A stretch of DNA of 64,000 nt, from the IMG/VR virus record IMGVR_UViG_3300044640_002737, positions 248,001-312,000 of that record; one strand, 5' to 3'. The DNA is from a virus. Position numbers and translations under genes: made by a program. Below, in pieces: positions 1,158 through 63,313 of this stretch. The number at the start of each line of letters is the position of its first letter. The first letter of the stretch is position 1. The notes below the pieces were generated by a model, which was not told where the DNA came from, did not search any database, and saw nothing but the letters and a program-made list of their open reading frames with translations.

Positions 1158-1165
1158 TATATATC
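1158..1165 (-). promoter_or_regulatory. GATATATA promoter-like octamer
   Basis: GATATATA on the minus strand, 17 bases before the ATG at 1140. One of nine exact copies found in short intergenic gaps, all oriented towards the downstream gene. Likely a phage-specific promoter core. Confidence 0.6.
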
Positions 1166-1175
1166 CCAATGAAAA

Positions 1176-2732
1176 CTAAAGTTTAACTTTGTATATTTTA
1201 TAATCGAAAGATTCCTTCTTGTATATCTCCATTCTCTCCAGACTATGTTTCATTAAATAATTCAAATAATTTTTGGTACTAAAATCGTCAACGAAATCTA
1301 TAATATTTACTTTGTCCTTTCCTTCCATTTTACGCATACCCCTACCTAAACTCTGCTTAATTAGAACTTCACTCTTATATGATTCAACAAGAAATATATT
1401 ATGCAGATTATTGATCGAAATACCGGTAGAGAATGTTCCATAAGTTGCTATAAGGACCTTATTTTCACCCGAGCTCATTCTTGTTTTATATTCCTCTCTT
1501 AGAGCTTCATTTGTTCCACCTTCGACGTAGAAAACCTCCTTGTCCGAGTTTTTCTCTCTTAGTAAATTCCATATCTGCTTTCCGTATTCATCCTTAACTG
1601 ATTGAAATAGTACTAGTGAATTCTTAGAACTTTTACTAATGAAATCAACTATGTAATTAAGTCTTTTTCTGCTTTCTATAACTAACTTTCTTTCTATGTT
1701 ATAAAACTCATTTCCTTCTATTTTTTTATCCGATGATTTATTCGAATTGTTAAGTTTTATGTCAGCAAGTTTTTGTTTATAGCTATCTTCAAGCCAATCC
1801 ATAATAACAACCTTTATCGAAACAGGTGTTGCATAGTTATTATCAAAAAGATAGCTTGGCGGGATTTCAACAACAAGTGGACCTAAAAATTGCTGTATTG
1901 TCATATAATCAGCGGTTCCTTTCTTTGTCAATGTTCCGGTTAGACCAAATCTCCATCTAGAGTGCATGCAATTTGCAACTATCTTCTTTATGGACATGGA
2001 ATTCGTATGGTGTGCTTCATCAACAAAAACAACATCAACATCAGCAAAAAATTCTGGTTCCTTCTTCACCAGTGATTGGAAAGTACCCATAATGACATCA
2101 CAGCCTTCCCTGAGCTTACTTCCTCCACCGATTTGCTGAATCTTAACTCCTAATTTTTCTATTCCATAATCCTCGAAATCGTCGCTCCCTTGAAAAACAA
2201 GATTATTATTGGGAACTATCATCATATATTTTTTAATGAGTCCCTTGGATTTCAAATAAGCAAATATCATAAATGATATTAATGTCTTACCTGACGAAGT
2301 GGCTACCTCAGAAATAGAATATCTGTATCTTATAATCTTCCAAGCCGTTTCTATCTGATAATCTCTGGGTTTCTTATCGGGATCACCACCTATACCATCC
2401 TCAAAAAATTCATTCACCCATGTAGTAAAATCCTCTAGTGTTATGTCCCTTATAATAATCTCCTCTATGCCTTTTATTTGCATCTCGATTTTATACTTCT
2501 CACCTATCTCAAGAACCTCTCTCCATAATCCAATAGGAACCTTCCACATATTTCCTTTCTTCTCTATAAAGCATATGTTTCCGTCCCATATCTTCTTCTT
2601 AACCAGTGGATGGAAATAGAAGTTATGGATCTTTTGCGTTAGTGATATATCTAGTTGTTTTTTCTCGACCTCGTCCAGGGATTCAATTAATATCATCCAT
2701 TGTTGGTCTTCTGAAACTTGAAATTTTAACAT
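1176..2732 (-). CDS. uvsW: UvsW-like superfamily 2 DNA helicase
   Basis: This 518-residue protein is about the length of T4 UvsW, a helicase that unwinds D-loops, R-loops and branched recombination intermediates and helps switch from origin- to recombination-dependent replication. The N-terminal ~110 residues match the small accessory domain of UvsW in placement. The helicase core shows a Q-motif-like KPRDYQ (about 121-126), Walker A ATSSGKT (144-150), DEAH (238-241), a LTGT motif III and a C-terminal QSLGRGMRK motif VI with the arginine finger. It follows the UvsY-like gene by 15 bases, the same neighbourhood as uvsW-uvsY in T4. No promoter octamer lies in front, so it is probably cotranscribed with the primase and UvsY-like genes. 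Confidence 0.9.
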   Translation of the reverse strand: MLKFQVSEDQQWMILIESLDEVEKKQLDISLTQKIHNFYFHPLVKKKIWDGNICFIEKKGNMWKVPIGLWREVLEIGEKYKIEMQIKGIEEIIIRDITLEDFTTWVNEFFEDGIGGDPDKKPRDYQIETAWKIIRYRYSISEVATSSGKTLISFMIFAYLKSKGLIKKYMMIVPNNNLVFQGSDDFEDYGIEKLGVKIQQIGGGSKLREGCDVIMGTFQSLVKKEPEFFADVDVVFVDEAHHTNSMSIKKIVANCMHSRWRFGLTGTLTKKGTADYMTIQQFLGPLVVEIPPSYLFDNNYATPVSIKVVIMDWLEDSYKQKLADIKLNNSNKSSDKKIEGNEFYNIERKLVIESRKRLNYIVDFISKSSKNSLVLFQSVKDEYGKQIWNLLREKNSDKEVFYVEGGTNEALREEYKTRMSSGENKVLIATYGTFSTGISINNLHNIFLVESYKSEVLIKQSLGRGMRKMEGKDKVNIIDFVDDFSTKNYLNYLMKHSLERMEIYKKESFDYKIYKVKL

Positions 2733-2747
2733 ATAAATTAGTTATTT

Positions 2748-3194
2748 CTATTTCACCGTAGATCCTCTTAGATAATCCTCCAACGATATTCTTTGGCGAA
2801 CCCCGTATAGCATGTGATCGGTGGTTTGTATTGTTTGGTCTATGAATTTTCTATGTCCTTCAACCAATTCTATCTTTTCTGATATCTCGCTTAAATCTCC
2901 CTCGATCAACACTGTTTTCTCATTAGATCCGTATCTAACATCACTTCTTTCAGAATAATCCTTCATCTTTCTGGATTTTTCAGTTCTGTATTTAGAATTA
3001 AGTTTGGATACAATTGATGCCAGTTTATAACTATATTCAAGCAGTACCTGTCTCTGACTAAATAGATCAATCTGAGCCTTAGCTAGAGTCTGTATATCCT
3101 TCATTTGTATTGCTATTACTTGGACCTTTTCTCTCCATTCGTTTCTCTCTGTTTCGAAGATTTTATTAAAGTCGCTTTTTTGCTCTGTAGACAT
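2748..3194 (-). CDS. uvsY: UvsY-like recombination mediator
   Basis: The ATG at 3194 sits one base after the stop of the upstream 82-residue gene and gives a 148-residue protein; an upstream in-frame extension overlapping that gene is less likely. The protein is all-helical and highly charged, as in T4 UvsY (137 residues), which loads the UvsX recombinase onto gp32-coated ssDNA. The arrangement Lys/Tyr-rich helix, EK-TVL-IEGD segment and C-terminal helix with the RQRISLEDYLRG end resembles UvsY. Its place directly before uvsW supports the call. Sequence similarity is at family-feel level only, so a structure-based comparison would be needed to be certain. Confidence 0.6.
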   Translation of the reverse strand: MSTEQKSDFNKIFETERNEWREKVQVIAIQMKDIQTLAKAQIDLFSQRQVLLEYSYKLASIVSKLNSKYRTEKSRKMKDYSERSDVRYGSNEKTVLIEGDLSEISEKIELVEGHRKFIDQTIQTTDHMLYGVRQRISLEDYLRGSTVK

Positions 3195-3195
3195 A

Positions 3196-3444
3196 TTAGA
3201 ATAGATTTGTTTTTGTTTTTTGTTTTTTCTTGCCAGATAAATCAACAACTCTTACGTTTTTTGATATCTCGTTTTTACCTTCAGTTTTAGGGTCTGCTAT
3301 TTTAGGTTCAGAGAATTCTGTATTTACTTCATATAAATCGGACTCTATGACCTTTATTGGAAATTTTATCTTGCTAGTCGATCTTCGAGTAACCTCTTTT
3401 TCCCAATCATCGGTGAGATCTATATGTATATTAGAATTATCCAT
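3196..3444 (-). CDS. Small hypothetical protein in recombination operon
   Basis: An 82-residue, highly charged protein with no recognised motif. The N-terminus is acidic (DLTDDWEKEV), and the C-terminus is basic (GKKKQKTKT). Its start overlaps the end of the primase gene by 8 bases, and its stop lies one base from the UvsY-like start, so the three are almost certainly translated from one message. That position suggests a small replication or recombination accessory factor, but nothing in the sequence shows a function. Confidence 0.65.
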   Translation of the reverse strand: MDNSNIHIDLTDDWEKEVTRRSTSKIKFPIKVIESDLYEVNTEFSEPKIADPKTEGKNEISKNVRVVDLSGKKKQKTKTNLF

Positions 3445-4501
3445 TTATAAAATATCCAAGATCTAAAATGTCATTGGTAAAATAGTTATCAAGCCTTTTA
3501 ATTTTCTTACCGGTGGTTCTTAAATGTATAACTAAATCATTAAGATCCCATTTTTTATTTTTATTTATATTATTCTCCTCCAGAAATTTACCCCAGTTGA
3601 AAACAGTGTGTCCCTTGCTTAGTAGATCCATTGTTTTTTCTATACCTGATTTATCCCAATCATACCAATACCTAACATTGTCAACCTCAAATGGAAATTT
3701 GTTTTCTAAAGAACATAAGCCAACCGAATTATTCCAAAAGAAAGAATCCATTGGTCCTTCAAATACTGTTATATCTGAGGAAAAATCCAAATTACCTATC
3801 CCAAAAACATGGGATATTGGATCTACAGCTCGTACCTTATCTATGAAATCCTGGTCCGTTACCTTAAGTAATTTTTCATATATTCCACTTAGTTTATATG
3901 TAAGATATTTGGCTGATCCCTTAATAGAATTCATATTTCTAACTTGGAGACCTAATATTTTATCATCGGGTGTTAAATTAAAAAGAAATAGTCTTTCCCA
4001 TTTACTATCCCATGCAAACTTTTTATCTAGCTTCTGGTGTCTCCTTGTAACGTATCTTTGTATACTAGATCCGTACACTTCAACCAATTTCATTTTGGAC
4101 ATAAATGTTTCCCTCGGAATTAATAGATCAGTGATGTCATTATCAAAGAAGTAGCTTATATCAACTTTACCATATACGGTTCTTCTTGTTCCCCTAACTT
4201 CCTCTAATACGCTTCTTATTTCATCCCTTTCAGTACCATTTAATTTACCATGTACAGCAAAATCCTTAAAGAAGCTGATAGCATCCTTGAATATTCCACA
4301 TCCACCATTATAGCATTTATACCCAAGGGTATCTAAATAGAAGTTTCCCCTTTTTTTCTTAGAGTCGTGTGAATCACCACAATACGGACAAGAGAAATTA
4401 AGTCGGTTACCCGCCTTATAAACTATTTGTTTATTTGGGTCTCTGGCAAATTCCTTTGCCAATACCGATCTTACTAAATCTTCTATTTTTCCTTGTTGCA
4501 T
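3437..4501 (-). CDS. DNA primase, zinc finger plus TOPRIM (gp61-like)
   Basis: The primase makes RNA primers for lagging-strand synthesis alongside the replicative helicase. From the ATG at 4501 the protein has 354 residues. A CHC2-like zinc ribbon is formed by C38, C41, C63 and C68 (CPYC and CYNGGC). The TOPRIM core shows the catalytic Glu in FEGPMD (E248, D252) and the metal-binding DWD (281-283). Length and layout fit T4 gp61 and other DnaG-related phage primases. An upstream ATG at 4525 is possible, but it would read through the terminator hairpin between gp32 and this gene, so 4501 is preferred. It is the first gene of a run primase, small protein, UvsY-like, UvsW. Confidence 0.9.
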   Translation of the reverse strand: MQQGKIEDLVRSVLAKEFARDPNKQIVYKAGNRLNFSCPYCGDSHDSKKKRGNFYLDTLGYKCYNGGCGIFKDAISFFKDFAVHGKLNGTERDEIRSVLEEVRGTRRTVYGKVDISYFFDNDITDLLIPRETFMSKMKLVEVYGSSIQRYVTRRHQKLDKKFAWDSKWERLFLFNLTPDDKILGLQVRNMNSIKGSAKYLTYKLSGIYEKLLKVTDQDFIDKVRAVDPISHVFGIGNLDFSSDITVFEGPMDSFFWNNSVGLCSLENKFPFEVDNVRYWYDWDKSGIEKTMDLLSKGHTVFNWGKFLEENNINKNKKWDLNDLVIHLRTTGKKIKRLDNYFTNDILDLGYFING

Positions 4502-4504
4502 AAT

Positions 4505-4546: not shown

Positions 4547-4555
4547 TTTAATTTA

Positions 4556-6858: not shown

Positions 6859-7095
6859 TTATATACTAGGAGCGATCTTCTGTCCAGTGCTACCTGTATA
6901 ATTATAAACTTTGGAAAGTTTATCGAAGCACTTCTTCATCTGATCCTCTGTTAAACAATCAACAATATCGTTTAAAACTCTCTGGTCGTTACCAGAAGCT
7001 GCAACTAATAAGTTCTTCATGTGGTCTTTTTCACTGTAAAGTGGCTGACCGTATTTCATTTCGTTAATCTTTTTTAGATCTGTGAATGTCTTCAT
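6859..7095 (-). CDS. Small hypothetical protein with targeting-like N-terminus
   Basis: A 78-residue protein without known domain. It begins MKTFTDLKKINEMKYG, which resembles the T4 capsid-targeting peptide, and INE would fit the Ile/Leu-x-Glu prohead-protease site. The remainder is predicted helical (CLTEDQMKKCFDKLSKVYNY). It follows a GATATATA octamer and ends three bases before the RuvC-like start, so it probably heads the transcript leading into the resolvase and gmhA. Function unknown. Confidence 0.65.
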   Translation of the reverse strand: MKTFTDLKKINEMKYGQPLYSEKDHMKNLLVAASGNDQRVLNDIVDCLTEDQMKKCFDKLSKVYNYTGSTGQKIAPSI

Positions 7096-7113: not shown

Positions 7114-7121
7114 TATATATC
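7114..7121 (-). promoter_or_regulatory. GATATATA promoter-like octamer
   Basis: Minus-strand GATATATA, 18 bases before the ATG at 7095 and directly after the stop of the tail-tube-like gene. It marks the switch from structural genes to the replication block. Confidence 0.6.
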
Positions 7122-13240: not shown

Positions 13241-14911
13241 TTAGGCTGTTGCATTATATGTTGTTAGTACACCACATTGGTTTGTTGTTAATCCACCTCC
13301 CCATGCTGAATAATATACTTTGAACCATCTTCTGTTACCCGCAGTTGATCCGGTTCCTTGTATATTAACTATTGTTATGTCTATTGTAGATGCTCCAACC
13401 CCATTAGATGCAGATAAATTAATAAATGAATAGTTTGAAGATGGTGTATTATTAGGTGCATCTCCCTGATTATTTGAAGTATTTAGTCCAATGAATTTAA
13501 AATTATCGGTACTAGAAGTTCCTGAATTGCCACTATGAACTCTAAAGTTTATCGATTCACCATTTTCCAATAATTTTAGCCACCCACCATTTCCACCAGG
13601 TGCTCCACCAGTGGCAGGAGTCCATAAACATAATCCTCTCTGGTTTGCAGTAGATGTTGGTTTTGTTACAACTAAATCCATTCCATTATTCGACCATACA
13701 TAATTGCCGGTTGACGTTAATGAGATAGAGGGAAGAACTGTAACCCAATCTATCTGTGTTCCTGCAACTACCGATGTCGTTGTTGCAGTTACAGATTGTG
13801 CATTCTGTATGGAATTAACTCTTTTATTAAAATAAAATAATCCAGACCCATCTACATAGTTTATAATAGATCCAGATTGAACACTTCTAAATAGATTTAT
13901 TAGCTTAGTTCCAGTGGATGGATAAACATATCTAATATTTCCAGTATTAGCCGACGCTGAAGCCAACCTCATCGTTGGAATAACACTATTACTTTGGGTA
14001 GAAGAATATATCGGGGTTTTAAAAGAAAATAATCCACCTGAGAAACTTATATTACTGGTCGAGAATATGGCTGAACCTGTCGAAAAATTAAATGTAATTC
14101 TCGATGTTGCATTTATACCGAATGGTAAAGTACTAGGCGTTGTCATATTGATTCCAGTTGAGGTTAAATTAATACCTGACGAAATGGAAGCAATATATAA
14201 ATCGGAAGAAGTGTTTATATCGAATCTATATCCACTAAGCAAGCTAAGTCCATAATTTCCTCTTGCTGATGTCGCTCCCTGAGTCCAATAAAATCTGGGT
14301 GTTTTTTGTGTAAATGCTAAATTCGAAGAATACTGGTGTTTACTAAACTCCAGTATATTCTTATTCGGATTAAGTCCATCGGTGGATATAACGAATTTAC
14401 TATACTGCGGATTTGGTATCGCATTAGGGGAACTGGTGCTTGATCCACTTGTTATCTGGACGTCACTAATTACTGTTGTATAACTTAAGGGAAGAGAAGA
14501 TGATATGTAATAACCCCTTTTAGTACTGTTGCCCGATGATGTTATTACTGGACCATCAACATAAAATAAATCCCTGGATCTTACGTTTATGCCACTCAAT
14601 GCCCAAGAATTTCCGTTGAACTCGTATATATTATTAAATTCATCAGTGTTCATCCAATAATCTGATAAATATACGTTATTTCCTTGGGGTTGTGTCGGAC
14701 CAATGTTCCATATACTACCTCTCCTTCCGAGATCCCCGTATGAACCCACCGGGCCAGTAGCTCCCTTATTTCCATCAGGTCCAATTTTACCTATCTTTCC
14801 ATAAGGGCCTCCACCGAAGTCAATTATACCGGTAAAATTATAATTAATTTTATCAATTATATTATTCTGAGAATCCCCTTCTTCTATTCTAAGTAACTGT
14901 AACTCTGTCAT
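13241..14911 (-). CDS. Collagen-like tail fibre protein
   Basis: This 556-residue paralogue of the two neighbouring fibre proteins shares the N-terminal motif GDSQNNIIDKINYNF, a Gly-x-x stretch (about 34-63) and a following segment with QPQGNNVYLSDYWMNTD. The remainder is a Ser/Thr/Asn-rich beta-structured shaft and a C-terminal head with many aromatic residues (RRWFKVYYSAWGGG). No enzymatic motif is seen, and it lacks the Hint domain found in the 703-residue paralogue. A GATATATA octamer lies 21 bases upstream, so the two downstream fibres can be expressed apart from the 518-residue gene. Likely a receptor-binding or decorative fibre; the exact place on the virion is unknown. Confidence 0.75.
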   Translation of the reverse strand: MTELQLLRIEEGDSQNNIIDKINYNFTGIIDFGGGPYGKIGKIGPDGNKGATGPVGSYGDLGRRGSIWNIGPTQPQGNNVYLSDYWMNTDEFNNIYEFNGNSWALSGINVRSRDLFYVDGPVITSSGNSTKRGYYISSSLPLSYTTVISDVQITSGSSTSSPNAIPNPQYSKFVISTDGLNPNKNILEFSKHQYSSNLAFTQKTPRFYWTQGATSARGNYGLSLLSGYRFDINTSSDLYIASISSGINLTSTGINMTTPSTLPFGINATSRITFNFSTGSAIFSTSNISFSGGLFSFKTPIYSSTQSNSVIPTMRLASASANTGNIRYVYPSTGTKLINLFRSVQSGSIINYVDGSGLFYFNKRVNSIQNAQSVTATTTSVVAGTQIDWVTVLPSISLTSTGNYVWSNNGMDLVVTKPTSTANQRGLCLWTPATGGAPGGNGGWLKLLENGESINFRVHSGNSGTSSTDNFKFIGLNTSNNQGDAPNNTPSSNYSFINLSASNGVGASTIDITIVNIQGTGSTAGNRRWFKVYYSAWGGGLTTNQCGVLTTYNATA

Positions 14912-14932: not shown

Positions 14933-14940
14933 TATATATC
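14933..14940 (-). promoter_or_regulatory. GATATATA promoter-like octamer
   Basis: Minus-strand GATATATA overlapping the last codon of the 518-residue fibre gene and 21 bases before the ATG at 14911. Would drive the 556- and 703-residue fibre genes. Confidence 0.6.
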
Positions 14941-27862: not shown

Positions 27863-28768
27863 TTATAATGTAACGTTGGTACCACTTATAACTATCCAAG
27901 ATCCATTTTGTGTTGCTTGTCCCTGTCCAACTCTAGGTTCCCACTGAAGAGTAACCGATGATCTGTATGCTGAATTTTGATTCATTACTATACCTCCTGA
28001 AGGGTATCCGCCATATAATGCAGCAGTATTAAATCCGGTATAATATTGGGTGGATCCGGTTACACCTGTATGTATATAACCAGTAGCCGATGTTGTATTA
28101 ACTATGGTTACTCTTGAACCTTGAGGTAATGAAGGTAGTGTTCCACCTACTGGTGAAACCCCATCAACCACTTTAATATAAAATCCGGTTGGGCCACACT
28201 CAGCATAAATAACATCCTCCAGTCCAGTTATAGCATATGGTGAATTTACAGTGGATGTTCTACCACCACCGCCAGAGGTATTTGCTGGAAATGCTGTTCC
28301 TGCAGTAGCACCACTAGCATATGTAGTGTTCTGACTTACCACATGACCTTGTGTTCCTAGATATACTGCAGAGTTTGCAGTTAATCTACCGTTAAACTCC
28401 GATGTTCCGTTAGAAACAAAAGTAGATAAACCACCAAATGTAATATTTGATGCTGCAGTTATAGCTCCAGATGCAGTGAATGTCGTTGTGGTTACACTAG
28501 CAAATGATGCTTGTCCAGAGCTATTAACGGATGCAGTTGCAGTCCCTAACGCTGGTAATGATATGGTATCAAATCTACCAATTTTAGCTTGAACTCTTCC
28601 AGTAGATGCTGCTGAAAGATCTAGTATCCCGTTTATAGTGTCGATACCAAACACATTAACATAACCATTTATCCAGTTTTGTAATATTAAAAAATTGGAA
28701 TTTATGGTTATTCTTGAGCCCGATATTGAATCAGAACCTAAAATTTCGTTGATGTTTACAGTTGCCAT
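27863..28768 (-). CDS. Short tail fibre-like protein
   Basis: A 301-residue protein. Its N-terminus (SRITINSNFLILQNWI) looks like a shorter version of the attachment motif of the collagen-like fibres further down. Residues 50-150 are a repetitive Ala/Thr/Ser shaft (SVTTTTFTASGAITAASN), and the C-terminal ~130 residues form a Gly- and aromatic-rich head ending VISGTNVTL. Such composition is common in short tail fibres. It is the first minus-strand gene after the phoH region, and a GATATATA octamer lies 29 bases upstream, so it likely heads the transcript for the large tail proteins. Confidence 0.65.
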   Translation of the reverse strand: MATVNINEILGSDSISGSRITINSNFLILQNWINGYVNVFGIDTINGILDLSAASTGRVQAKIGRFDTISLPALGTATASVNSSGQASFASVTTTTFTASGAITAASNITFGGLSTFVSNGTSEFNGRLTANSAVYLGTQGHVVSQNTTYASGATAGTAFPANTSGGGGRTSTVNSPYAITGLEDVIYAECGPTGFYIKVVDGVSPVGGTLPSLPQGSRVTIVNTTSATGYIHTGVTGSTQYYTGFNTAALYGGYPSGGIVMNQNSAYRSSVTLQWEPRVGQGQATQNGSWIVISGTNVTL

Positions 28769-28797: not shown

Positions 28798-28805
28798 TAT
28801 ATATC
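28798..28805 (-). promoter_or_regulatory. GATATATA promoter-like octamer
   Basis: Minus-strand GATATATA, 29 bases before the ATG at 28768. It probably serves the whole run of tail genes down to about 15 kb. Confidence 0.6.
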
Positions 28806-33909: not shown

Positions 33910-35661
33910 TTATGCTATTGATCCGCCTATTTCCCATCCCTTTTTATAATTAGTATGATTTACTGCATTATTGGGATATCCAACTTTTAACCTCATACCG
34001 GTAAATGAACTACCGGTGTCACTTGCAAATGGGTATGTTAATGGGCCGGACGTTAGTCCTAGACCATTTACGTCAGATAGATATGAAGCATCCCATACTA
34101 TTTCCACTCTGCCTATATAAAGTCCGGTTGCCGAATGTAAAGGATCAGTTATATGAACTGCAATTCCCTGAAAGATGGGAGTATCCGTTACATTCTCGAA
34201 TGGACAATAGAATCTTGATGCCTCGAATAATATATTATTGGCAAATGTTGTTGAAGATGTTGTTGAATTAAATATACTGGCTAAACCTGAACCAGATCCA
34301 TATCCTGCATCATTCGCTGTTATTAAAAGAGTATCGGGACTATTTCCAATACCTCCACCGCCACCGGAACTTATCACAACGTTATATGAGCCTATTAGGT
34401 TATCACTTCCTTCTCTATAAACATTAACATTAACATTAACATTTATTACAACGCCGAACTTAGTGAAAAATAACCTGGATGAAGGTATAGCTACACCAGG
34501 CCTAGTACCAAGGGTTATTGTATATCCACCAGTCCAATCTATGCTATAATATGATGATAAGTACATCTCAGTATTTGCTACAAGATACGATATACCATCA
34601 GCATGCTTGGATGATGCAGATAAATAATACTTATTCTCCAAAAATTTATTAATGGCCCCGTTTGTCCATCCCCTTGATGTTTTTAAATTATAGAAAGTTA
34701 AGGATGTTCCCGTTGTCGTATAATCAGTTAGATATAAATTATCTTGCAGGGTGGTGTTTATACCTCCAGCTAATATATAGCTACCTGTACTAAATTGTGA
34801 ATTAGGATTAACGCCAGCTCCCATAATAATAAACGCGTTCTTGTTTATTATTAATCTAAGTCTAATCGGATCCATACTAGTATATACATCGGAACTATTT
34901 GGCAAATAATATGCAACCTCGTCAGTTGAATGTGAATATAAATTATTTATAGGTGCATATAAACTGGATGCTTGATCAATCTTTATAACTAAACCAGATC
35001 CACCAAGACCTATATCATTAGAAGTGTATGCTGTTACTGATGGTGTATAATAAGGTCCACTAGCAGTTGCCCCATATAAGTCATTATAATAGAATCCCTC
35101 AGCAGGTCCCATTTTATAGAATGTAACATTCGTACTTGAGTTTACCACGTTACCCACATTACTAGTAACAGTTAAAGTAGCGGTAGCAACATATGCTGAA
35201 TTAACAGAGCCTACGTAAGTATTAGCCAGATTATACCAATCCAAGTTTGCATATGTTACATTACTTAAATATATTCCCGATGTTGCACCAAGACCAGGTA
35301 TGCTCCACACGTATCCGGTCAATCCACTTCCCGCTGTAGCTGAAGAACCATAATAAACTGTATCGTCCATTAAAACATTAACATTAGATGCGGTTACTGC
35401 GGCAGATATATTTTCCGGAGTTACAACGATTATATTATTCTTGGTAGTTGTAGCAACAACGGTTGCTGCGTCGGTCACAGTTAAAGATGTGGAATATCCA
35501 TTTGTATTGACACCATTATAAGTTACTGCGGGTCCATAGGATGTAGCACCGGTTGGTGTTCCACCTTGGAAACTCCAATCTCTTTGCACAACATCACCTA
35601 TGCTCGTATCATAGTAATAAATGATGTCCCCCTGTTCTATACCTAGTATTACGTCTGCCAT
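33910..35661 (-). CDS. Fibre-like structural protein
   Basis: A 583-residue protein, Ser/Thr/Val/Tyr-rich with no Cys-rich or membrane part. Residues 30-190 show two strand-rich units (SLTVTDAATVVATTT, ATLTVTSNVGNVVNSS) compatible with Ig- or PKD-like folds. The C-terminal half contains DTLLITANDAGYGSGSG and further long strands. Its start follows a GATATATA octamer by 20 bases, so it may be transcribed with the giant propeller protein as a unit. Like its neighbours it is probably a tail or fibre component; I do not recognise a specific family. Confidence 0.6.
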   Translation of the reverse strand: MADVILGIEQGDIIYYYDTSIGDVVQRDWSFQGGTPTGATSYGPAVTYNGVNTNGYSTSLTVTDAATVVATTTKNNIIVVTPENISAAVTASNVNVLMDDTVYYGSSATAGSGLTGYVWSIPGLGATSGIYLSNVTYANLDWYNLANTYVGSVNSAYVATATLTVTSNVGNVVNSSTNVTFYKMGPAEGFYYNDLYGATASGPYYTPSVTAYTSNDIGLGGSGLVIKIDQASSLYAPINNLYSHSTDEVAYYLPNSSDVYTSMDPIRLRLIINKNAFIIMGAGVNPNSQFSTGSYILAGGINTTLQDNLYLTDYTTTGTSLTFYNLKTSRGWTNGAINKFLENKYYLSASSKHADGISYLVANTEMYLSSYYSIDWTGGYTITLGTRPGVAIPSSRLFFTKFGVVINVNVNVNVYREGSDNLIGSYNVVISSGGGGGIGNSPDTLLITANDAGYGSGSGLASIFNSTTSSTTFANNILFEASRFYCPFENVTDTPIFQGIAVHITDPLHSATGLYIGRVEIVWDASYLSDVNGLGLTSGPLTYPFASDTGSSFTGMRLKVGYPNNAVNHTNYKKGWEIGGSIA

Positions 35662-35681: not shown

Positions 35682-35689
35682 TATATATC
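35682..35689 (-). promoter_or_regulatory. GATATATA promoter-like octamer
   Basis: Minus-strand GATATATA, 20 bases before the ATG at 35661, overlapping the stop region of the glycosyltransferase gene. Confidence 0.6.
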
Positions 35690-45013: not shown

Positions 45014-45385
45014 TTATGTTAATCTTAATGTAACCAATGGGCTTAATTTTCCATCCTGAGGTAATTTAAAGTCTAGTGTTGCTATATCCCTTAATGTACC
45101 AACATAGAATCTAAGATCATAGCTACCGCCAAGCACTGAAAATAATGGAACATAGACCTTAAGGAAAAGATCTAATTCCTTCCTAATACTAGATTCCGAA
45201 AGTTCCAGATTAAATATAAGATCTTCAAGGTTTAATCCAAATTTAGGATCACCTAAAACTTCGCCCTTATTAGTAAGTAGCATCATTTTAAGTTGGCCTA
45301 TACAAATCTCTATTGGATCTGTGACCTCTATTTGATAAGGATTGTAGTTGGGATCAAGCGGATCTCTATTGTAAATCTCTCTCAT
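45014..45385 (-). CDS. Baseplate wedge protein gp25
   Basis: A 123-residue protein of the GPW/gp25 family, which caps the sheath-baseplate junction and nucleates sheath assembly. The family-typical pattern is clear: a helix with IEICIGQLKMMLLTNKGEVLGDPKFGLNLEDLIFN (residues about 26-60), where LLTNKGE and PxFG are the hallmark motifs. It is followed directly by the gp6-like gene, the same order as gene 25-gene 6 in T4. The ATG lies at the foot of a small hairpin and 20 bases after a GATATATA octamer, so this wedge unit may start its own transcript. Confidence 0.9.
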   Translation of the reverse strand: MREIYNRDPLDPNYNPYQIEVTDPIEICIGQLKMMLLTNKGEVLGDPKFGLNLEDLIFNLELSESSIRKELDLFLKVYVPLFSVLGGSYDLRFYVGTLRDIATLDFKLPQDGKLSPLVTLRLT

Positions 45386-45405: not shown

Positions 45406-45413
45406 TATATATC
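45406..45413 (-). promoter_or_regulatory. GATATATA promoter-like octamer
   Basis: Minus-strand GATATATA, 20 bases before the gp25 ATG, in a 32-base gap after the 258-residue gene. Confidence 0.6.
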
Positions 45414-46211: not shown

Positions 46212-47618
46212 TTAGTAATTCATATTACCAAATCTAGGCTTATTGTATGTATCATTAGAATCTTTAAGCCTCTTATCAGATACAAATCTAAGCATTCTCT
46301 GATCACTAGGATTTTTAACCTTCATTGTCTCCTTGCTTATCTCAGCATTTTCACCTATTATACCAGCTCTAAGAACTCCACCGTCTATTTTGCAATTTAT
46401 ATTCTTACCCTCGCAATCAATAAAACAATCATTTAGGGTGTTCGTATAGTCCACTATGGTTGATTTAACTTTGGACGAAATAACTTTGGTTCCACTAAAA
46501 ATATAAGAATCCTCTATGGAGGACTTCTTGATATCGCAGTTATAAATATTGCAATTTTTTATAACTGCATTTTTAATATCGCACATTATAAGGTCAATAT
46601 CATTTATCCCAAATGCTCCCCTGCTTCTTGCTTCCTTAACTTGATATCTACCATTAGTGGTATCATAATTAAAATAACATGAAGTTATATCGCCTTCAAC
46701 AATTAGATCGAATATTTTATCTCTTATTATAGGGAAATATGTTTTTATATTTTCGTCCCATCCCTTCAGATCAACGAATACGTGGAAGTCCGGATAATTT
46801 TTAAAGAAGAAATCTGGATTACTAAAAGATCTAACAACCTTAGAATATTTACTCATCATCTTTTGTAAAGAAACAAGATCATCCTGGGTATATCCAGTTA
46901 TTCTTCTGCTTAATAGATCGTACATATAGAGAATTATATAATCTATAATTTCTCTAATATCCTTTATCTTTTTCTGATAATCACGATTACCAAGATATCT
47001 AAATTCTATATAACCCTGAGGTATCTTAGTGAAATTAACACCATAATACTTGTCATTAGGAACCTTATACATTTTAGGATCGATCGAAGTTATATTTTCT
47101 AGTATAGAAAATCTATTAACTGGGACGATTTTTTTTATTGATTTAGCATAGACATTTTTTTCTCTGTTACCAAATTTTGAATATATCAGTCCTTCATCAA
47201 GACCAAGTATAAATTTAAGTTTGTCTATGTTTTCTATTTTATCTTTTATGTCTCTTCTAAATTTATCAAAACTTATAGAAAATTGGAATGCACATCTATC
47301 AGTGGTCCATCCATTTTCATCTATCCATTTTAACACCTTTATTAATATTGTTATAGCTTCATTATAAGGTAAAGGTCCTGTTATGAACTCCATCATTTTA
47401 CTTCCACCTGAGTAGTCTGGCTCTAATTTAAAATTAGAGCCATCCACAGGTATATTTGAATGATATTTTTCTGAAACTACTACTTTTTTCTTAAGGAGTG
47501 AAGCAAGCGATTCCGCTGCTTTACCCTTTAGTAGATTTGTATAGAATTCAAATTCGAATCCTATAACGGAAGATTCAAGTGCATTAATTCTATCAAGATG
47601 TGTTCTATTATCTGACAT
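46212..47618 (-). CDS. Amidoligase-like enzyme fused to beta-helix
   Basis: A 468-residue protein in two parts. Residues 15-250 match the putative amidoligase family (COOH-NH2 ligase with a glutamine-synthetase-like fold): GFEFEFY (20-26) with metal-binding Glu, VDGSNFKLEPD (58-68), KMMEFITGPL (74-83) and CAFQFSISF (109-117), where many members have HVHVS, and later YIEFRYLG. Such enzymes form amide bonds on peptides or proteins with ATP. The C-terminal part (about 330-445) has short repeats such as NAVIKNCNIYNCDIKKSSIEDSYI, typical of pentapeptide or right-handed beta-helices. Its start overlaps the S1-like gene by 11 bases. An enzyme inside a baseplate operon is unusual. Catalytic ability is uncertain because the His residues are missing. 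Confidence 0.65.
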   Translation of the reverse strand: MSDNRTHLDRINALESSVIGFEFEFYTNLLKGKAAESLASLLKKKVVVSEKYHSNIPVDGSNFKLEPDYSGGSKMMEFITGPLPYNEAITILIKVLKWIDENGWTTDRCAFQFSISFDKFRRDIKDKIENIDKLKFILGLDEGLIYSKFGNREKNVYAKSIKKIVPVNRFSILENITSIDPKMYKVPNDKYYGVNFTKIPQGYIEFRYLGNRDYQKKIKDIREIIDYIILYMYDLLSRRITGYTQDDLVSLQKMMSKYSKVVRSFSNPDFFFKNYPDFHVFVDLKGWDENIKTYFPIIRDKIFDLIVEGDITSCYFNYDTTNGRYQVKEARSRGAFGINDIDLIMCDIKNAVIKNCNIYNCDIKKSSIEDSYIFSGTKVISSKVKSTIVDYTNTLNDCFIDCEGKNINCKIDGGVLRAGIIGENAEISKETMKVKNPSDQRMLRFVSDKRLKDSNDTYNKPRFGNMNY

Positions 47619-48768
47619 CGATTAATTGAGCGAATATTTTTCCGGAAATTACATCAACCTCATATAATGATACCAATAAGGTATCACCAGCTTTGATGTT
47701 ATTTCCCTTCTTACCCAGTCTATCCTGAGGAACTAAAGCCATTAAACCAAGTTCAGTTATTTCAACTAATGCTCCGTTTTTTCTTTTGTGTTTAACTTTA
47801 GCTTCGTAATTATCCAAGCTTCCTTCAGAAATTCCCTTCTCCAAATCTTGCATGATTACATTCTTCTCCAATGGCTGATCCAAAGTAAGAGTAAGCCTAT
47901 TATTATCTTTTATTTCCTTAACATAAAATTCGATCTCGTTACCAGGAACTAATGTTGTTGAGGAATTGCCATTTTGGAATTCTGTCTTGTGTATCAATCC
48001 AGTATAAACACTGTCCCATTCAACAAACACACCGAAATCGCTAGTACCAGTAACATATCCCTTATATTTTTTGGTTAAGTCAAGCTCCTGGATTTTAGAA
48101 TCCATTATCTTGTTTAGATATTTCTTATAAGAAACTATGAATATGTCTTTTTGGTCAATGTATCCTTCAATCATAACATGTAGTTCTTTTCCTACATATG
48201 ATTCGAAGTTAGTTATTTTATTAGCAGCTGCTAATGATCCAGGTAGAAAACACTTAATTCCTGATAGATCCACGATATATCCACCCTTATTAACACTCTC
48301 TATTCTAACAAGATATGCACTGCTTTCTTTTTTAATTTGTTCAAATAGTTCAACTTTAAGACTCTGTATATAGTGTTCAACAGCTGATCCGATATAACTA
48401 CCGTTAGATTTTCTAACTCTAACGTTAATGGTTTCACCAGGTACGAAATTTAATCCGCCAATACCAAGCTTAATTGCGTCTTTTCTTTCTTTCTTTAGAT
48501 CAAGATAGATTGTTTGGCCCGATCCTGTTTGTGCTAAAGCCTCATCTTCCTTAGCGGAGATAATTTTGCAACCATAAACAGCACCATCAATAAGATCTTT
48601 CGATCCTTCGTCCAATAGATGATAAGTTGAATGATAAAGATCCGCTAATTCCTGAGCATATGGTTCGTGGCAATAAACCTTTGCACCATCAGGAGATTTA
48701 ACTTTATGATTAATTGATAGCCCGTTAGGAACGTCCCAGTCGAAATTATCTAATGCTTCTAATTTCAT
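47608..48768 (-). CDS. Ribosomal protein S1-like, four OB-fold protein
   Basis: A 386-residue protein built from S1-type RNA-binding domains. The third (about 233-298) is the clearest: YKGYVTGTSDFGVFVEWD, then GLIHKTEF and a closing strand RLTLTLDQ, the classic S1 pattern. The second (148-216: GGYIVDLSGIKCFLPGSLA) and fourth (318-385: NGALVEITELGLMALVPQDRL) also fit; the first (60-128) is more divergent. Bacterial S1 carries mRNA to the 30S subunit. A phage copy might favour phage messages, bind phage RNA or act as a replication factor like S1 in Q-beta replicase. It has its own GATATATA octamer 44 bases upstream and overlaps the amidoligase-like gene. The role is inference; the domain call is solid. 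Confidence 0.85.
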   Translation of the reverse strand: MKLEALDNFDWDVPNGLSINHKVKSPDGAKVYCHEPYAQELADLYHSTYHLLDEGSKDLIDGAVYGCKIISAKEDEALAQTGSGQTIYLDLKKERKDAIKLGIGGLNFVPGETINVRVRKSNGSYIGSAVEHYIQSLKVELFEQIKKESSAYLVRIESVNKGGYIVDLSGIKCFLPGSLAAANKITNFESYVGKELHVMIEGYIDQKDIFIVSYKKYLNKIMDSKIQELDLTKKYKGYVTGTSDFGVFVEWDSVYTGLIHKTEFQNGNSSTTLVPGNEIEFYVKEIKDNNRLTLTLDQPLEKNVIMQDLEKGISEGSLDNYEAKVKHKRKNGALVEITELGLMALVPQDRLGKKGNNIKAGDTLLVSLYEVDVISGKIFAQLIDVR

Positions 48769-48812: not shown

Positions 48813-48820
48813 TATATATC
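48813..48820 (-). promoter_or_regulatory. GATATATA promoter-like octamer
   Basis: Minus-strand GATATATA in the 86-base gap before the S1-like gene, 44 bases from the ATG, the longest spacing of the set. Confidence 0.55.
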
Positions 48821-58372: not shown

Positions 58373-58957
58373 TTAAATATCTACTGAAAATCCTTTATCC
58401 TTACCAAAAACTGAATCGTCCCTATTATATAGGTCCATACCAACAACAAACTTAAAAAGCTTTAGAAATAATGCTGGTATAAAAACATCCTGCGATTTAA
58501 CAACATCGTTAGCTGGGATAAAAGTAAATTCTGCCATTTTTTCCTGTTTAGAGCCGTCAGTTTCAGCTTCTCCTTTTTTAATATCTGTAACGTTAACAGC
58601 AAAGCATGGATATTCTTTTTGTACGAACTTATTGGATGTAACAGTTCCCAGAAAATACCATTTCGAACTATCTTCAACATCATATCCGGATTCCTCTTTT
58701 AGCTCCCTTTTAGCTGTAGCTAAATAATCAGGATCTTCATCATCACACGTTCCGGTAATTAAACTCGTAGTATTACCACCTTCTCTAAAAAGATTAGGTT
58801 CTTTGATAACCCCTAACATCAGGGGTAAACCTTGATCATCCGAAATGAACGGTAAAATCATAACAGTTTCGACTGTTGAAACTATACCTGCTTTACCCTC
58901 CCTTTCAACAACCTTAAATTTGGGAGCTTCGTAGCAAACTTTATCTTTATTTTTCAT
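58373..58957 (-). CDS. Nudix hydrolase
   Basis: A 194-residue protein with the Nudix core: a Gly (in TGTCDDEDPD), then ATAKRELKEESGY (about residues 82-94), giving the REL-x-EE-x-G signature that binds metal and cleaves nucleoside diphosphate derivatives. The spacing between the first Gly and the REL box is one residue longer than the canonical motif. Strands before and after (VETVMILPFISDD, YFLGTVTSNKF) complete the fold. T4 NudE hydrolyses ADP-ribose and related compounds, but the substrate here cannot be told. It overlaps the end of the upstream 221-residue gene by 11 bases. Confidence 0.8.
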   Translation of the reverse strand: MKNKDKVCYEAPKFKVVEREGKAGIVSTVETVMILPFISDDQGLPLMLGVIKEPNLFREGGNTTSLITGTCDDEDPDYLATAKRELKEESGYDVEDSSKWYFLGTVTSNKFVQKEYPCFAVNVTDIKKGEAETDGSKQEKMAEFTFIPANDVVKSQDVFIPALFLKLFKFVVGMDLYNRDDSVFGKDKGFSVDI

Positions 58958-59612
58958 TGGTGCTATTATTTCTTCTTCTATTTGTTACTATAGGCTCCTT
59001 ATCTGAATCATTAGATTTGCTTGATGCTGTATAATAGGATTTTCTTATTGATTCGCCTAGCGATCTCTTAATGTCATCTATATTAACATCATCCAAAACA
59101 AAATCAACTATTTCCTTCTCAGCATCATCGAATGAAAGACATAGAACACTATATAAATCCTTTGATGGTAAATTTAATTTAAGCTTTATTGAAACCTCAA
59201 CAGCATTTTTTTTCTGCTTTTTTAATAGCTTATATATCGGTGATTCGTCGAATGATACATTTGGCTGATCCGAATATTGGATCGACGTAACCATCGGTTC
59301 TGACTTGGGCCTAGGTAACTCATGATTTACAGTGGGTGGTTCAGGAATTCTAGTATTTGCTGGAAACCATACCATATACTCATCCAGTAAATTCAAATTT
59401 ATTCTTTTACCGCTATTAAAAAGTATAAAAACATCTTCACCATTTGAATTTATGTTCTTGTATGTCTCAGTTACTGACATATCCTCACCTTTTATCCATT
59501 GAAACTCCATTCCGGAGTACTTTGCAATAGCATCTTCCAAAGTTTCCTGACTTATCTCCATTTTTTTCTTTTTATTAGATTTTTTAGAAAAGAGATTTAA
59601 AATATTAATCAT
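58947..59612 (-). CDS. Hypothetical protein
   Basis: A 221-residue protein with a Lys-rich N-terminus, a possible internal start at codon 18 (MEISQETLEDAIAKYSG), a central part with Trp and Phe-rich strands (VFILFNSGKRINLNLLDEY), and a C-terminal helical region (DVNIDDIKRSLGESIRKSYY). The last ~25 residues are polar and likely disordered. No family recognised. The start is preceded by an AAAATAAAAT-type leader. It sits between a 91-residue gene and the Nudix hydrolase. Confidence 0.6.
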   Translation of the reverse strand: MINILNLFSKKSNKKKKMEISQETLEDAIAKYSGMEFQWIKGEDMSVTETYKNINSNGEDVFILFNSGKRINLNLLDEYMVWFPANTRIPEPPTVNHELPRPKSEPMVTSIQYSDQPNVSFDESPIYKLLKKQKKNAVEVSIKLKLNLPSKDLYSVLCLSFDDAEKEIVDFVLDDVNIDDIKRSLGESIRKSYYTASSKSNDSDKEPIVTNRRRNNSTNEK

Positions 59613-59890: not shown

Positions 59891-59928
59891 CAGGAATTAT
59901 AGTCGAAGTAAATACTTTTTGTTTCGTA

Positions 59929-60864: not shown

Positions 60865-60871
60865 CTTTAAA

Positions 60872-61303
60872 TTATTTTCCGAACTCCACGGTTATTTCAA
60901 AATTCTTAGGATCCGTCGAGTTTCTCATATTGATAGATACATTTGTTGGATATGACGGTATTGTATTTTCCTTGGCATCAATTTTAAGCTGACTAAAGTC
61001 TATAGTTTTACCAGGTATTAGATCTATATCAAACTCCTTGTCTTCGTTTGGGTGATCGTCAACCATAAACTCAAGCTCAACCGAACTAACACTAAAATTC
61101 ATTCCCTCTATCCCAGATTTATTAACAACAAGATCAACTGAATAATCAATAAAAACTTTAGCATCAGAAATATCAGCATACTCCTCCGGTCTATCATATA
61201 TGTCCACGTCAATATACTTTAATTCAACTCCGAATGAGTAATCGTTATATTTAGCACCTTTAGAACTACCAGCGAATGCAGCATAATCATATATTTTAGC
61301 CAT
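60872..61303 (-). CDS. Hypothetical beta-rich protein
   Basis: A 143-residue acidic protein made largely of alternating strands (VELKYIDVDIYD, AKVFIDYSVDLVVN, SVSSVELEFMVDD, NFEITVEFGK), compatible with a jelly-roll or Ig-like fold. No catalytic motif. It has a GATATATA octamer 24 bases upstream and diverges from the plus-strand gene beginning at 61390. Possibly a small virion decoration or scaffold component; not decidable. Confidence 0.6.
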   Translation of the reverse strand: MAKIYDYAAFAGSSKGAKYNDYSFGVELKYIDVDIYDRPEEYADISDAKVFIDYSVDLVVNKSGIEGMNFSVSSVELEFMVDDHPNEDKEFDIDLIPGKTIDFSQLKIDAKENTIPSYPTNVSINMRNSTDPKNFEITVEFGK

Positions 61304-61327
61304 ATTTGAATTTTATTTTAGTTATTG

Positions 61328-61335
61328 TATATATC
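61328..61335 (-). promoter_or_regulatory. GATATATA promoter-like octamer (divergent region)
   Basis: Minus-strand GATATATA, 24 bases before the ATG at 61303, in an 86-base divergent gap. Confidence 0.6.
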
Positions 61336-61358
61336 ATTCGTAACTTTTTATCTAGTCA

Positions 61359-61366
61359 AATATATA
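61359..61366 (+). promoter_or_regulatory. Variant promoter-like octamer AATATATA
   Basis: AATATATA on the plus strand, 23 bases before the ATG at 61390. It differs from the minus-strand octamer by one base and has the same spacing, fitting a divergent promoter pair. Confidence 0.4.
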
Positions 61367-61389
61367 AAATAAGATTCCATTTAAAAGAA

Positions 61390-62115
61390 ATGAAAAATAT
61401 AAGTCCAATTTGGTTCATAAAAGAACCGATCGATCAGGAGCACAAAGAGTATATCCTACTGGATTATCTAAAAGAGCTCAGTAAAAATTTAAACTCTGGG
61501 AATTGCTACTCCACGCTAAGGGAGGTTTCTAGATTACTTAGAATATTAACAAATTTTAAATCAAAAAATTCGGTGGAATTAAAATCATTCAATGGGTGGA
61601 AACCCGAGGATAGAGATATTATAGCCAATTTTAAATTTAATGCCCTTGACGAACCAACTCAGGAGAAGATATTAAATATAGTAGATAGCTCATTGGAAAC
61701 ATTATATGAATATTCAGAAATATGTATGGATATACTAAAGGATGAGGAATCAAAGATAAAAATATTTGAGGTTGAAACGGAAATAGAAAAGAATTCTACC
61801 AAAAAACCAAATTCAGGAATTCTTATAATTAGAAACATGATAAACGATAAAATCATACCTTATCATTGGCAAGGATCATTAACGATGAAAACCGATGATG
61901 GAGACAAGGAAATATGTATATTAAAAAGAATATATTTAAAGAATTCCAAATTTTCTCTAAATTATGAATACATCTATCATGAAATATTGGCTGAGGCTAA
62001 TCTAGAAAAAAAATCATCTCCGAGTCTATATGTAATTCAGATATATGAAAATTTTGAGGAAAATTCAGAAATATATAGATTAGCAAAAGAAAAATTCATA
62101 GAAAAAATATCATAA
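61390..62115 (+). CDS. Hypothetical plus-strand protein
   Basis: From the ATG at 61390 (MKNISPIWFIKEPID) the protein has 241 residues; an upstream frame to 61306 would cover the divergent promoter gap and is less likely. It is helical and acidic, with LLDYLKELSKNLNSGNCYSTL near the start and ETEIEKNS followed by a beta-rich C-terminal third. No recognised domain. It is one of only two good plus-strand genes and has its own terminator hairpin, so it is expressed apart from the minus-strand operons. Confidence 0.65.
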   Translation: MKNISPIWFIKEPIDQEHKEYILLDYLKELSKNLNSGNCYSTLREVSRLLRILTNFKSKNSVELKSFNGWKPEDRDIIANFKFNALDEPTQEKILNIVDSSLETLYEYSEICMDILKDEESKIKIFEVETEIEKNSTKKPNSGILIIRNMINDKIIPYHWQGSLTMKTDDGDKEICILKRIYLKNSKFSLNYEYIYHEILAEANLEKKSSPSLYVIQIYENFEENSEIYRLAKEKFIEKIS

Positions 62116-62149
62116 AAAAGGCTTCGTTTAAAAACGAAGCCTTTTTTTT
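62114..62149. terminator. Strong bidirectional terminator hairpin
   Basis: A stem of GGCTTCGTTT with AAACGAAGCC, flanked by an A-run before and a T-run after (AAAAAAGG ... CCTTTTTTTT), so it can stop transcripts from both sides. It sits between the plus-strand gene and the convergent minus-strand 115-residue gene. Confidence 0.92.
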
Positions 62150-62164
62150 ATACTTATATTAGAT

Positions 62165-62512
62165 TTAAAAATCACTAAGATTTTTTATAAATGAATAGCC
62201 TGAATTGTTAGCGGATTCACTAGTATCCATATTAAAAACATTTCCAAATTGCTGAGCATCTACTTCACCTTGCTTTCCGTCCATATCTATTCTATAAGCA
62301 GGTACATCTATTTTGGATTTATTACCAAATACAGAATCTGCATATCCAACAAAATCAAAAGCTGGTTCTCTTTTTATTACTGAAAGACCCGTTCTATCAC
62401 TGGAATCTTTTTGATTGTCCGCTGCGAAAGGTTTATAGGTATCGTCATGTACTTTACCTAAAAATTGTTTATAATCAAGAACCTCTCTTTTTTCTACGTC
62501 CTGTACGTTCAT
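62165..62512 (-). CDS. Small hypothetical protein
   Basis: A 115-residue acidic protein, Asp/Asn/Ser-rich with little predicted secondary structure. The segment VLDYKQFLGKVHDD at 11-24 shares the F-containing style of the targeting-like N-termini but lacks an Ile/Leu-x-Glu site. No known domain. It is 111 bases downstream of the 220-residue gene and ends in the shared bidirectional terminator. Function unknown. Confidence 0.6.
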   Translation of the reverse strand: MNVQDVEKREVLDYKQFLGKVHDDTYKPFAADNQKDSSDRTGLSVIKREPAFDFVGYADSVFGNKSKIDVPAYRIDMDGKQGEVDAQQFGNVFNMDTSESANNSGYSFIKNLSDF

Positions 62513-62597
62513 ATTCTATAATTTTATTTTTTACATAAACCGAAACAAACAATACCGAAGGTCATTTTGGTTATTAAATTGCAAATAGTTTTCATAA

Positions 62598-62632
62598 TTT
62601 ATTTTATTTTATTTTATTTTATTTTATTTTTT
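62598..62632. repeat. ATTTT pentanucleotide microsatellite
   Basis: Six exact ATTTT units (62601-62630) run from the stop codon of the 220-residue gene into the spacer. The same AAAAT-type unit appears in shorter form before phoH and other starts. Confidence 0.9.
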
Positions 62633-63286
62633 AGCTCCTGCCACAAAACCGTCCCAAATTCCAGATAACGTATCCAATACGCCACCGCCACCATTTTCTT
62701 TTTTATCAGAAGTTATGTTTCTTGCAGAAGCCGATGTTGGATAAGCTTTAGAAGCTTTTTGTAAAAATTCACCCTTAAATGCTTCTTTTTCTTTATCGCT
62801 TAATGATGAGATAGTTTTTGCTCCTATAGGTTCATCAGAAAATGCGGACATGAAAAATGCTGTTAATTTTTCTTTACCTAATTCACCTTGTAGGGATTCT
62901 CTAATAGTTGAGTACATCCATCCGTTAGGTTCCAAACCAAAAGGCTCGATTAGTGAATCCATACCTTTCCTTTGTATATATTCCTGAACAGCCTGAGCTA
63001 GTCTAGGTGCTAGAAATTCTGCATTTGCATTTTCACCAGTTATTAAACCTGGCATTTCTTTAAATTCTATTGAATCTACTAATTCCTGTATAATAATAGA
63101 AAATTTTGAATTTTCCTTAACCCCTATTTTTTCCATTAGCACTGCTGCTAATTTTTGTTTAAGTGTTTTAATAAATCCAGTTCCTAATGAGGGTATAACC
63201 TTACCAAGTATTCCTGAAATATCTATATTCTCATCTAAAGATATAGCATTGCTCTTAAATTGATCTAGTCTAAGTATTCTCTGCAT
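62624..63286 (-). CDS. Hypothetical protein with targeting-like N-terminus
   Basis: A 220-residue, mostly helical protein (LPRLAQAVQEYIQRKGMDSLI-like stretches, KEKLTAFFMSAFSDEP). It begins MQRILRLDQFKSNAISLDENID; LDE could be a prohead-protease site as in T4 internal proteins, although the first residues fit less well than the other candidates. The C-terminus is Gly-rich then ends SGIWDGFVAGAKK. No enzymatic motif. A GATATATA octamer lies 19 bases upstream. The stop codon is part of a pentanucleotide microsatellite. Function unknown. Confidence 0.6.
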   Translation of the reverse strand: MQRILRLDQFKSNAISLDENIDISGILGKVIPSLGTGFIKTLKQKLAAVLMEKIGVKENSKFSIIIQELVDSIEFKEMPGLITGENANAEFLAPRLAQAVQEYIQRKGMDSLIEPFGLEPNGWMYSTIRESLQGELGKEKLTAFFMSAFSDEPIGAKTISSLSDKEKEAFKGEFLQKASKAYPTSASARNITSDKKENGGGGVLDTLSGIWDGFVAGAKK

Positions 63287-63305
63287 CTTATTTTTTTATT
63301 TAAAC

Positions 63306-63313
63306 TATATATC
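63306..63313 (-). promoter_or_regulatory. GATATATA promoter-like octamer
   Basis: Minus-strand GATATATA, 19 bases before the ATG at 63286, in the 51-base gap after the asparagine synthetase gene. Confidence 0.6.

Follow-up and report, generated by a model that had tools for sequence, protein, structure and literature searches.

Late transcription in phage T4 starts from a box of 8 bp that precedes the start site by about one helical turn and has no conserved -35 sequence, and the T4-related phages KVP40, 44RR, S-PM2 and Aeh1 carry drifted late boxes, that of Aeh1 varying at its first two letters (PMC2988020). The T4 system combines the box TATAAATA with the proteins gp55, gp33 and gp45, and T4 gp55 deprived of its C-terminal region still gives basal transcription (PMC7892883). 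In flavobacteria the sigma-A box is TAnnTTTG, located at -12 to -5 in F. psychrophilum, where 5.5% of mRNAs are leaderless (figures as given in PMC9723704). Leaderless messages are also known from phages, with lambda as an example (PMC3160421), and the AR9 paper mentions that phage transcripts are often leaderless (PMC5312081). Here we describe an octamer, GATATATA, in the virus record IMGVR_UViG_3300044640_002737 (373,467 bases), of which positions 248001-312000, a stretch of 64,000 nucleotides, constitute the window analyzed. We conclude that GATATATA is very probably the late-promoter box of a T4-superfamily jumbo phage with a probable Bacteroidota host, most likely read by a gp55-type sigma factor and, in a subset of copies, likely giving rise to leaderless mRNAs. 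A search of the open literature, in which the octamer itself was not a search term, found no publication describing this box or T4-type late mRNAs that lack a leader, and megablast of a 12-kb piece against 50,697 phage records, from which close records were possibly excluded, found no near DNA relative.

The placement of GATATATA before gene starts is firmly established. Octamers were scored as upstream when located within 60 bases before a start, a zone comprising 2.0% of octamer positions in the window. Gene calls were our own and uncurated, with start codons and start sites determined computationally. In the window, 9/10 copies of GATATATA were upstream (P 6e-15, best among all upstream octamers), and with a stricter second set of calls (minimum 80 amino acids) the count was 8/10 (P 1e-12), second behind the A-rich word AAATAAAA. 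Over-abundance of the octamer as such was considered and rejected, since the 10 copies found compare with 12.6 +- 3.6 from dinucleotide shuffles. Outside the window, 23/29 copies were upstream (P 1e-27) in seven evenly spaced 20-kb stretches (140 kb) of the same genome, chosen by position with the list of sites already known. The signal also extends to relatives, with 69/110 copies upstream in the gp55-gene neighborhood of 36 non-redundant relatives (80 IMG/VR relatives of the gp55-type protein were taken and 44 dropped as redundant or near-identical) and 28/34 in a relative with a genome of 434 kb, G001, of which 160 kb were sampled. A sequence-only reading of the window had proposed GATATATA as a likely phage-specific promoter; placement near starts is borne out both in and outside the window, and an equal frequency inside genes, which would have spoken against the proposal, was looked for and not found.

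Orientation and wording of the octamer are specific as well. Upstream regions of the window contain 9 sense copies and 1 antisense copy, with 0.4 expected in shuffled upstream windows, and the wider own-genome sample contains 38 sense and 6 antisense copies against 2.2 in shuffles. This wider sample includes the stretches L106-L108, taken mainly for their short-spacer sites and holding 4 of the 12 genes with a box at distance 12 (see below); they bias the short-spacer class in the 38-box spacing, base-12, sense/antisense, N-terminal-motif and drift-word counts and were left out of the seven-stretch placement test, the G001 counts and the upstream-element and two-class comparisons. L121-L124 were likewise picked for short spacers. 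Among 280 permutations of its own letters, GATATATA ranks first in own-genome upstream windows. One-letter variants were practically absent from these positions: GATATATT was upstream in 0/25 cases in the window and 1/25 in the seven outside stretches, and GATATATC in 0/22 and 0/10, respectively. Low-information top motifs from a home-made expectation-maximization search were disregarded.

The organization around GATATATA resembles that of a T4 late promoter: an AT-rich box of 8 bp lacks a -35 element and is followed by AT-rich sequence, the phage encodes a gp55-type sigma factor, and virion-type genes are among those downstream. The most conserved of the 45 positions before the box has only 0.28 bit (own genome) or 0.42 bit (G001), so that both the box and the lack of an upstream element agree with a T4-type late promoter, while the distance to the start site is deduced from base 12, as described below. 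On the other hand, GATATATA departs from TATAAATA in 2/8 letters, the gp55 homologue is shortened, and gp33 and gp45 were not detected here. The two-letter departure lowers the likelihood of an identical box, not of one of the same kind, because T4-related phages vary at the first letters. The hosts of KVP40, 44RR, S-PM2 and Aeh1 are other than Bacteroidota. GATATATA is not among the boxes named for these phages in the late-promoter passages of PMC2988020. The T4 consensus TATAAATA was itself tried as the main box and rejected, being upstream in 3/26 cases in the window (P 0.02) and 5/23 outside (P 0.002). No copy of TATATATA occurs in the window or the seven outside stretches; in G001 it is upstream of starts in 5/8 cases, and the first letter of the box is therefore not strictly G in every relative.

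Similar words precede genes in related phages bearing gp55 homologues, for which 90-140 kb were sampled per genome. In Lak-A1, AATAAATA is the top upstream word (26/57); in LR756500, AATATATA is upstream in 19/54 cases, ranking behind A-rich words and ATATATAA; and in MA9V-2, TACATATA is upstream in 6/7 cases and ranks fifth. These counts are suggestive of AATAAATA, AATATATA and TACATATA being forms of one drifting box. The proposal of a diverged late-promoter box, one of two identities offered by the sequence-only reading, thus gains support from the T4-type layout, the gp55-type sigma, the drifted boxes, and the tail-fibre-like and head-protease genes located behind boxes. The latter, a gp21-type head-protease gene outside the window (phrog_207, E 1.5e-37), has its box 34 bases before the ATG. 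Genes behind GATATATA are likely expressed late.

The candidate for reading the box is a 119-amino-acid gp55-type protein encoded at 338 kb on contig C1 (phrog_234, E 2.5e-16), which matches T4 gp55 (PDB 7d7c/7d7d) by sequence with E 1e-5. The best of five AlphaFold models has a mean predicted local distance difference test score (pLDDT) of 82 (others 62-76), and its top fold match is 7d7c_F, with a template modelling (TM) score of 0.69 by query and a Foldseek E of 1.4e-3. A VIA-align superposition on 7d7c_F gives Z 14.0 with a root-mean-square deviation of 10.9 over 113 residues; we read the high deviation as probably stemming from a poorly placed tail of the model. Next in rank come other sigma region 2 domains (Z 8-10.6). 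The homologue is without the C-terminal part that bears the clamp-binding motif in T4. Related proteins are encoded by LR756500 (462 kb), by Prevotella Lak phages, by Chryseobacterium phages MA9V-1/2 and on 244 IMG/VR stretches, many of the latter redundant. Because these relatives belong to such phages, the host is probably a member of the Bacteroidota, in agreement with the host-type promoter class described below. Most likely, the short gp55-type sigma would direct host RNA polymerase to GATATATA with no upstream element, the box being read by sigma region 2.

Several observations weigh against this assignment. Phrog_234 was also matched in 7/14 control genomes (E up to 1) and is hence not specific to gp55; gp45 and gp33 were undetected by phrog_223, PF02916 and phrog_254, searches that distant forms could escape; and the genome encodes two further sigma-70 genes, which are candidate readers of the box. 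One is RpoD-like (L126:1342-2238, plus strand, at 61 kb; present in 5/6 relatives) and the other resembles extracytoplasmic function (ECF) sigma factors (L127:1153-1785, minus strand, at 345 kb; present in 6/6 relatives). That GATATATA is a phage promoter read by one of these two is unlikely, albeit the first alternative to consider given their presence in the genome and in most relatives. ECF and RpoD promoters normally have a -35-type element, and none accompanies the box, which moreover differs from TATAAATA in merely 2/8 letters. No ECF-like match (E 1e-5) was found among the Chryseobacterium phages, one of which, MA9V-2, encodes a homologue of gp55 and carries a word resembling the box, and the RpoD-like gene was not detected in G006, a 270-kb record and perhaps a fragment, which has the box. 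Among the three sigma factors, the promoter layout favors the gp55-type protein as the likely reader.

The distance between box and start codon, counted from the G of the box to the ATG, is bimodal. Of 75 boxes in the whole genome, 12 are located at exactly 12, corresponding to four bases between octamer and ATG, most others at 25-38, and few in between. The distance-12 boxes are found outside the window. Expressed as intervening bases, there are 12 boxes at 4, none at 2 or 3 and one at 5, and the excess at four bases is significant against an even spread (Poisson P 2e-6; 6e-5 corrected for 30 spacers). With called genes of the own genome, 12/38 boxes are at distance 12, and distances 8-11 and 13 are empty; the evenly spaced stretches and the window combined give 8/32 at distance 12. 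Similarly, G001 has 4/28 boxes at 12, none at 13-22 and 24 at 23 or more. In a wider tabulation that covered three relatives besides the own genome, every ATG up to 30 bases from a box made a row, some boxes being counted twice: among the rows listed (at least 215, with lower bounds for G001, G002 and G005), 39 have spacers of 4-5 bases, 10 of 8-15 and 116 of 16-26. In T4 (about 113 kb), 18/24 copies of TATAAATA have a start within 80 bases, all at 21-42; boxes in Lak-A1 are mostly at 30-40, with one at 11, and in MA9V-2 at 25-35, with no distance-12 class in the sampled sequence of these three phages, and LR756500 has 1/19 boxes at distance 12.

If the A of a distance-12 ATG is the first transcribed base, leadered promoters should carry an initiating purine at base 12 after the box G. 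In the own genome, base 12 of leadered boxes is A in 20/23 and G in 2/23 cases (the tally omits any box at distance 14 or 15 or close to a locus end), and in leadered boxes of the relatives it is A or G in 59/63, with 25 G compared with 0-9 at positions 9-11 and 13-23. Flavobacterial sigma-A numbering (-12 to -5) puts the start exactly at base 12 and T4 numbering (-13 to -6) one base later. A leader of 0 bases is indistinguishable here from one of 1 base. Transcription would then begin at a purine 12, sometimes 13, bases after the box G; most late mRNAs would carry an A-rich leader of about 12 nucleotides or more, and at about one sixth of boxes the start site would fall on the A of the start codon, so that the mRNA would have no leader. 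Since the distance-12 class coincides with the likely start base, some of the late mRNAs are predicted to be leaderless, and we consider the existence of such a subset likely from spacing and purine position combined.

Conservation of the short spacing was followed in orthologs. For gene L017:7771-8307, [G/A]ATATATA is found 12-14 bases from the ATG in 17/26 distinct ortholog sequences (9 G, 8 A), several of them close kin, and the letters of the spacer vary while the spacing holds. In three further short-spacer genes the distance is exactly 12 also in relatives, whose proteins are 21-57% identical. In the L017:7771-8307 orthologs of L064, L067 and L073, the ATG at the leaderless position is now ATA, with an ATG a few codons downstream; this would be a natural loss of the leaderless start. 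Pfam searches with 10 of the 12 leaderless genes gave matches above cut-off in three (SLT; DUF5661 with IF2_N; UVR), one weak FMN_red match and none in six.

A number of findings temper the case for the start site and the leaderless class. The excess of A in the own genome is modest (20/23 against a background of 59% A, P 0.004); in the relatives' loci, where boxes are largely orthologous, A alone at base 12 (34/63) is not above background, and in G001 base 12 of leadered boxes is A or G in 19/24, no more than at neighboring positions. Intermediate distances do occur, with two boxes at 14, one at 15 and one at 21 among the 38 of the own genome and one each at 10 and 15 in the relatives' loci, and spacer 0 (GATATATAATG) accounts for 13/215 of the rows listed, which we take as incidental. 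Among the orthologs of L017:7771-8307, 5/26 are without a box, 3 have lost the ATG at that place and 1 is irregular. Of 16 short-spacer genes tried, only 7 had matches, and just three were informative besides the best gene, the other matches falling short of the N-terminus or starting otherwise; the stretches of relatives that were matched had, in addition, been fetched for holding short spacers. As start codons and start sites are computed, the promoter could be real and the distance-12 genes nonetheless not leaderless, with a start codon further downstream or a transcript start elsewhere. We regard this as quite improbable. None of the 12 distance-12 genes of the own genome has a second in-frame ATG before codon 18, if it has one at all, the next GTG or TTG comes no earlier than codon 15, the spacing is conserved despite variable spacer letters, and an N-terminal motif shared by leaderless and leadered genes begins at the same ATG in both. 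We consider it reasonably probable that a lineage of Bacteroidota jumbo phages of the T4 superfamily uses a single late promoter in two fixed geometries, leadered or leaderless at 12-13 bases, with intermediates mostly avoided and a sigma factor consisting of region 2 only. Relative to known leaderless phage mRNAs, the likeness lies in the predicted AUG at the 5' end, and the difference in a prediction from a T4-type late promoter, at a fixed box-to-ATG distance and in a Bacteroidota-type phage.

The N-terminal motif deserves separate description. Many genes behind boxes start with MKH(I/L)xxFExF. A pattern set with the own genome, M[KRE][HNKTDS][ILVMF]xx[FY], is found there in 12/38 box genes, 0/23 host-type genes and 5/224 others, and in G001 in 7/28, 0/21 and 3/171, respectively (P 2e-5). 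T4 internal proteins IPII and IPIII begin with MKTYQEFIAEA, and capsid targeting in T4 depends most on residues 4 and 7 (PMC9026906). The resemblance lies in a short N-terminus with a hydrophobic or aromatic residue 4 and an aromatic residue 7; the difference is that here it occurs on many genes. A T4 capsid-targeting sequence also involves cleavage after Glu by a gp21-type protease; the present genome has the enriched motif and a gene for such a protease. The shared IPIII-like N-terminus suggests a large set of putative head-packaged proteins. Examples are L106:2587-2988 (plus strand) and L106:730-1509, L013:8547-9020 and window gene 589-1140 (all minus strand), whose starts are MKHIxxFExF-like and, by eye, often continue with hydrophobic-x-Glu. 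The leaderless gene L106:730-1509 combines such an N-terminus with DUF5661 and IF2 N-terminal domain matches. No tie of the motif to leaderless as opposed to leadered boxes was apparent (6/12 and 6/26 by eye, Fisher P 0.10).

A different kind of explanation, that the octamer is an RNA element of the 5' leader, such as a ribosome- or S1-binding signal, and no promoter, would account for its mostly upstream, sense-strand position, would suit flavobacteria, which are described as devoid of Shine-Dalgarno signals (PMC6847099), and could draw on the phage S1-domain gene located behind one of the boxes. It is nonetheless very unlikely. A single RNA element should not stand at two distinct distances, 12 and for the most part 25-38, and the leader is already filled by A-rich words located at about 8-25 bases. 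Nor would such an element explain the likeness to the T4 box, the presence of a gp55 homologue or the purine found at base 12. The S1-domain gene itself (47608-48768) might have a role in translating messages that are leaderless or rich in A.

The genome also contains a second class of upstream pattern, ATTTTTTTATC...TATATTTG, whose 17 sites in the own genome are 23-46 bases upstream of starts and whose 16 sites in G001 are at 20-45, distances that imply leaders of about 8-11 nucleotides at least. TATATTTG matches the flavobacterial TAnnTTTG, and the class carries a T-rich upstream element with a maximum of 1.58 bit in the own genome and 1.79 bit in G001. The majority of TATATTTG copies are not promoters, as only 21/73 are within 150 bases of a called start, and 10 of these 21 fall in the stretch at 60-80 kb. 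A form of this class written ATTTTTTTATC...TATATTTGC, of host sigma-A type, was noted in that stretch (L012, G000:C1:60001-80000), where it is dense at about 69-79 kb, and also in L014 and L015; it probably represents early promoters. GATATATA shares with the Bacteroidota sigma-A promoter its register to the inferred start site and differs in its letters, having neither TTTG nor an upstream element. Because the separate ATTTTTTTATC...TATATTTG class precedes other genes, GATATATA is not the host -7 element, and the second identity offered by the sequence-only reading, a host-type -10 element, finds no support. We accordingly give next to no credence to GATATATA being such an element or a chance product of AT-rich gaps, for although its total in the window is not above shuffles, the placement tests, the 38:6 ratio of sense to antisense copies against 2.2 in shuffles and the separate TATATTTG class weigh strongly against it.

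Recounting the window confirmed the nine minus-strand sites that had been listed at first and the reported gaps of 17-44 bases to the ATG, and added a tenth copy that had been overlooked; all ten are on the minus strand. The late boxes are located at 1158-1165 (17 bases before gene 589-1140, which encodes 183 amino acids with a capsid-targeting-like N-terminus by eye), 7114-7121 (18 bases, gene 6859-7095), 14933-14940 (21 bases, tail-fibre-like gene 13241-14911 by PHROG), 28798-28805 (29 bases, gene 27863-28768), 35682-35689 (20 bases, gene 33910-35661), 45406-45413 (20 bases, gene 45014-45385, with a weak baseplate wedge match, E 0.003), 48813-48820 (44 bases, the S1-domain gene; Pfam S1, E 8e-17), 61328-61335 (24 bases, gene 60872-61303) and 63306-63313 (19 bases, gene 62624-63286). 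At 14933 and 35682 the box shares 2 bases with the end of the gene that comes before it, in the former case with its stop end. Of the downstream functions suggested earlier, tail fibre and S1 domain hold and gp25 fits the weak baseplate-wedge match, while the other 6/9 genes have no PHROGs or Pfam family. The letter following the octamer, said to be usually C or G, is so at 7/9 window sites and at just 24/38 upstream boxes in the wider genome sample. The tenth copy (59231-59238) is within gene 58947-59612 and was not counted as a gene-start promoter; it is probably a chance copy or an internal promoter. The one-base variant reported before plus-strand gene 61390-62115 was recovered as AATATATA at 61359-61366 on the plus strand, 23 bases ahead of the ATG, and is possibly a weak late box; AATATATA is upstream of starts in 2/11 cases in the window and 8/20 in the seven outside stretches.

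As a working code for late promoters in a large set of giant phages not yet cultured, GATATATA would make late genes, operons and start codons readable from sequence. The bimodal spacing provides a natural comparison of translation with and without a leader in Bacteroidota, whose messages are without Shine-Dalgarno signals, and a region-2-only sigma factor with no detectable gp33 or gp45 makes it possible to test if late promoters can be served by a minimal sigma. If the two-geometry reading is true, these phages would possess a group of late genes that lack leaders, in many cases with capsid-targeting N-termini, in hosts that have few leaderless mRNAs.

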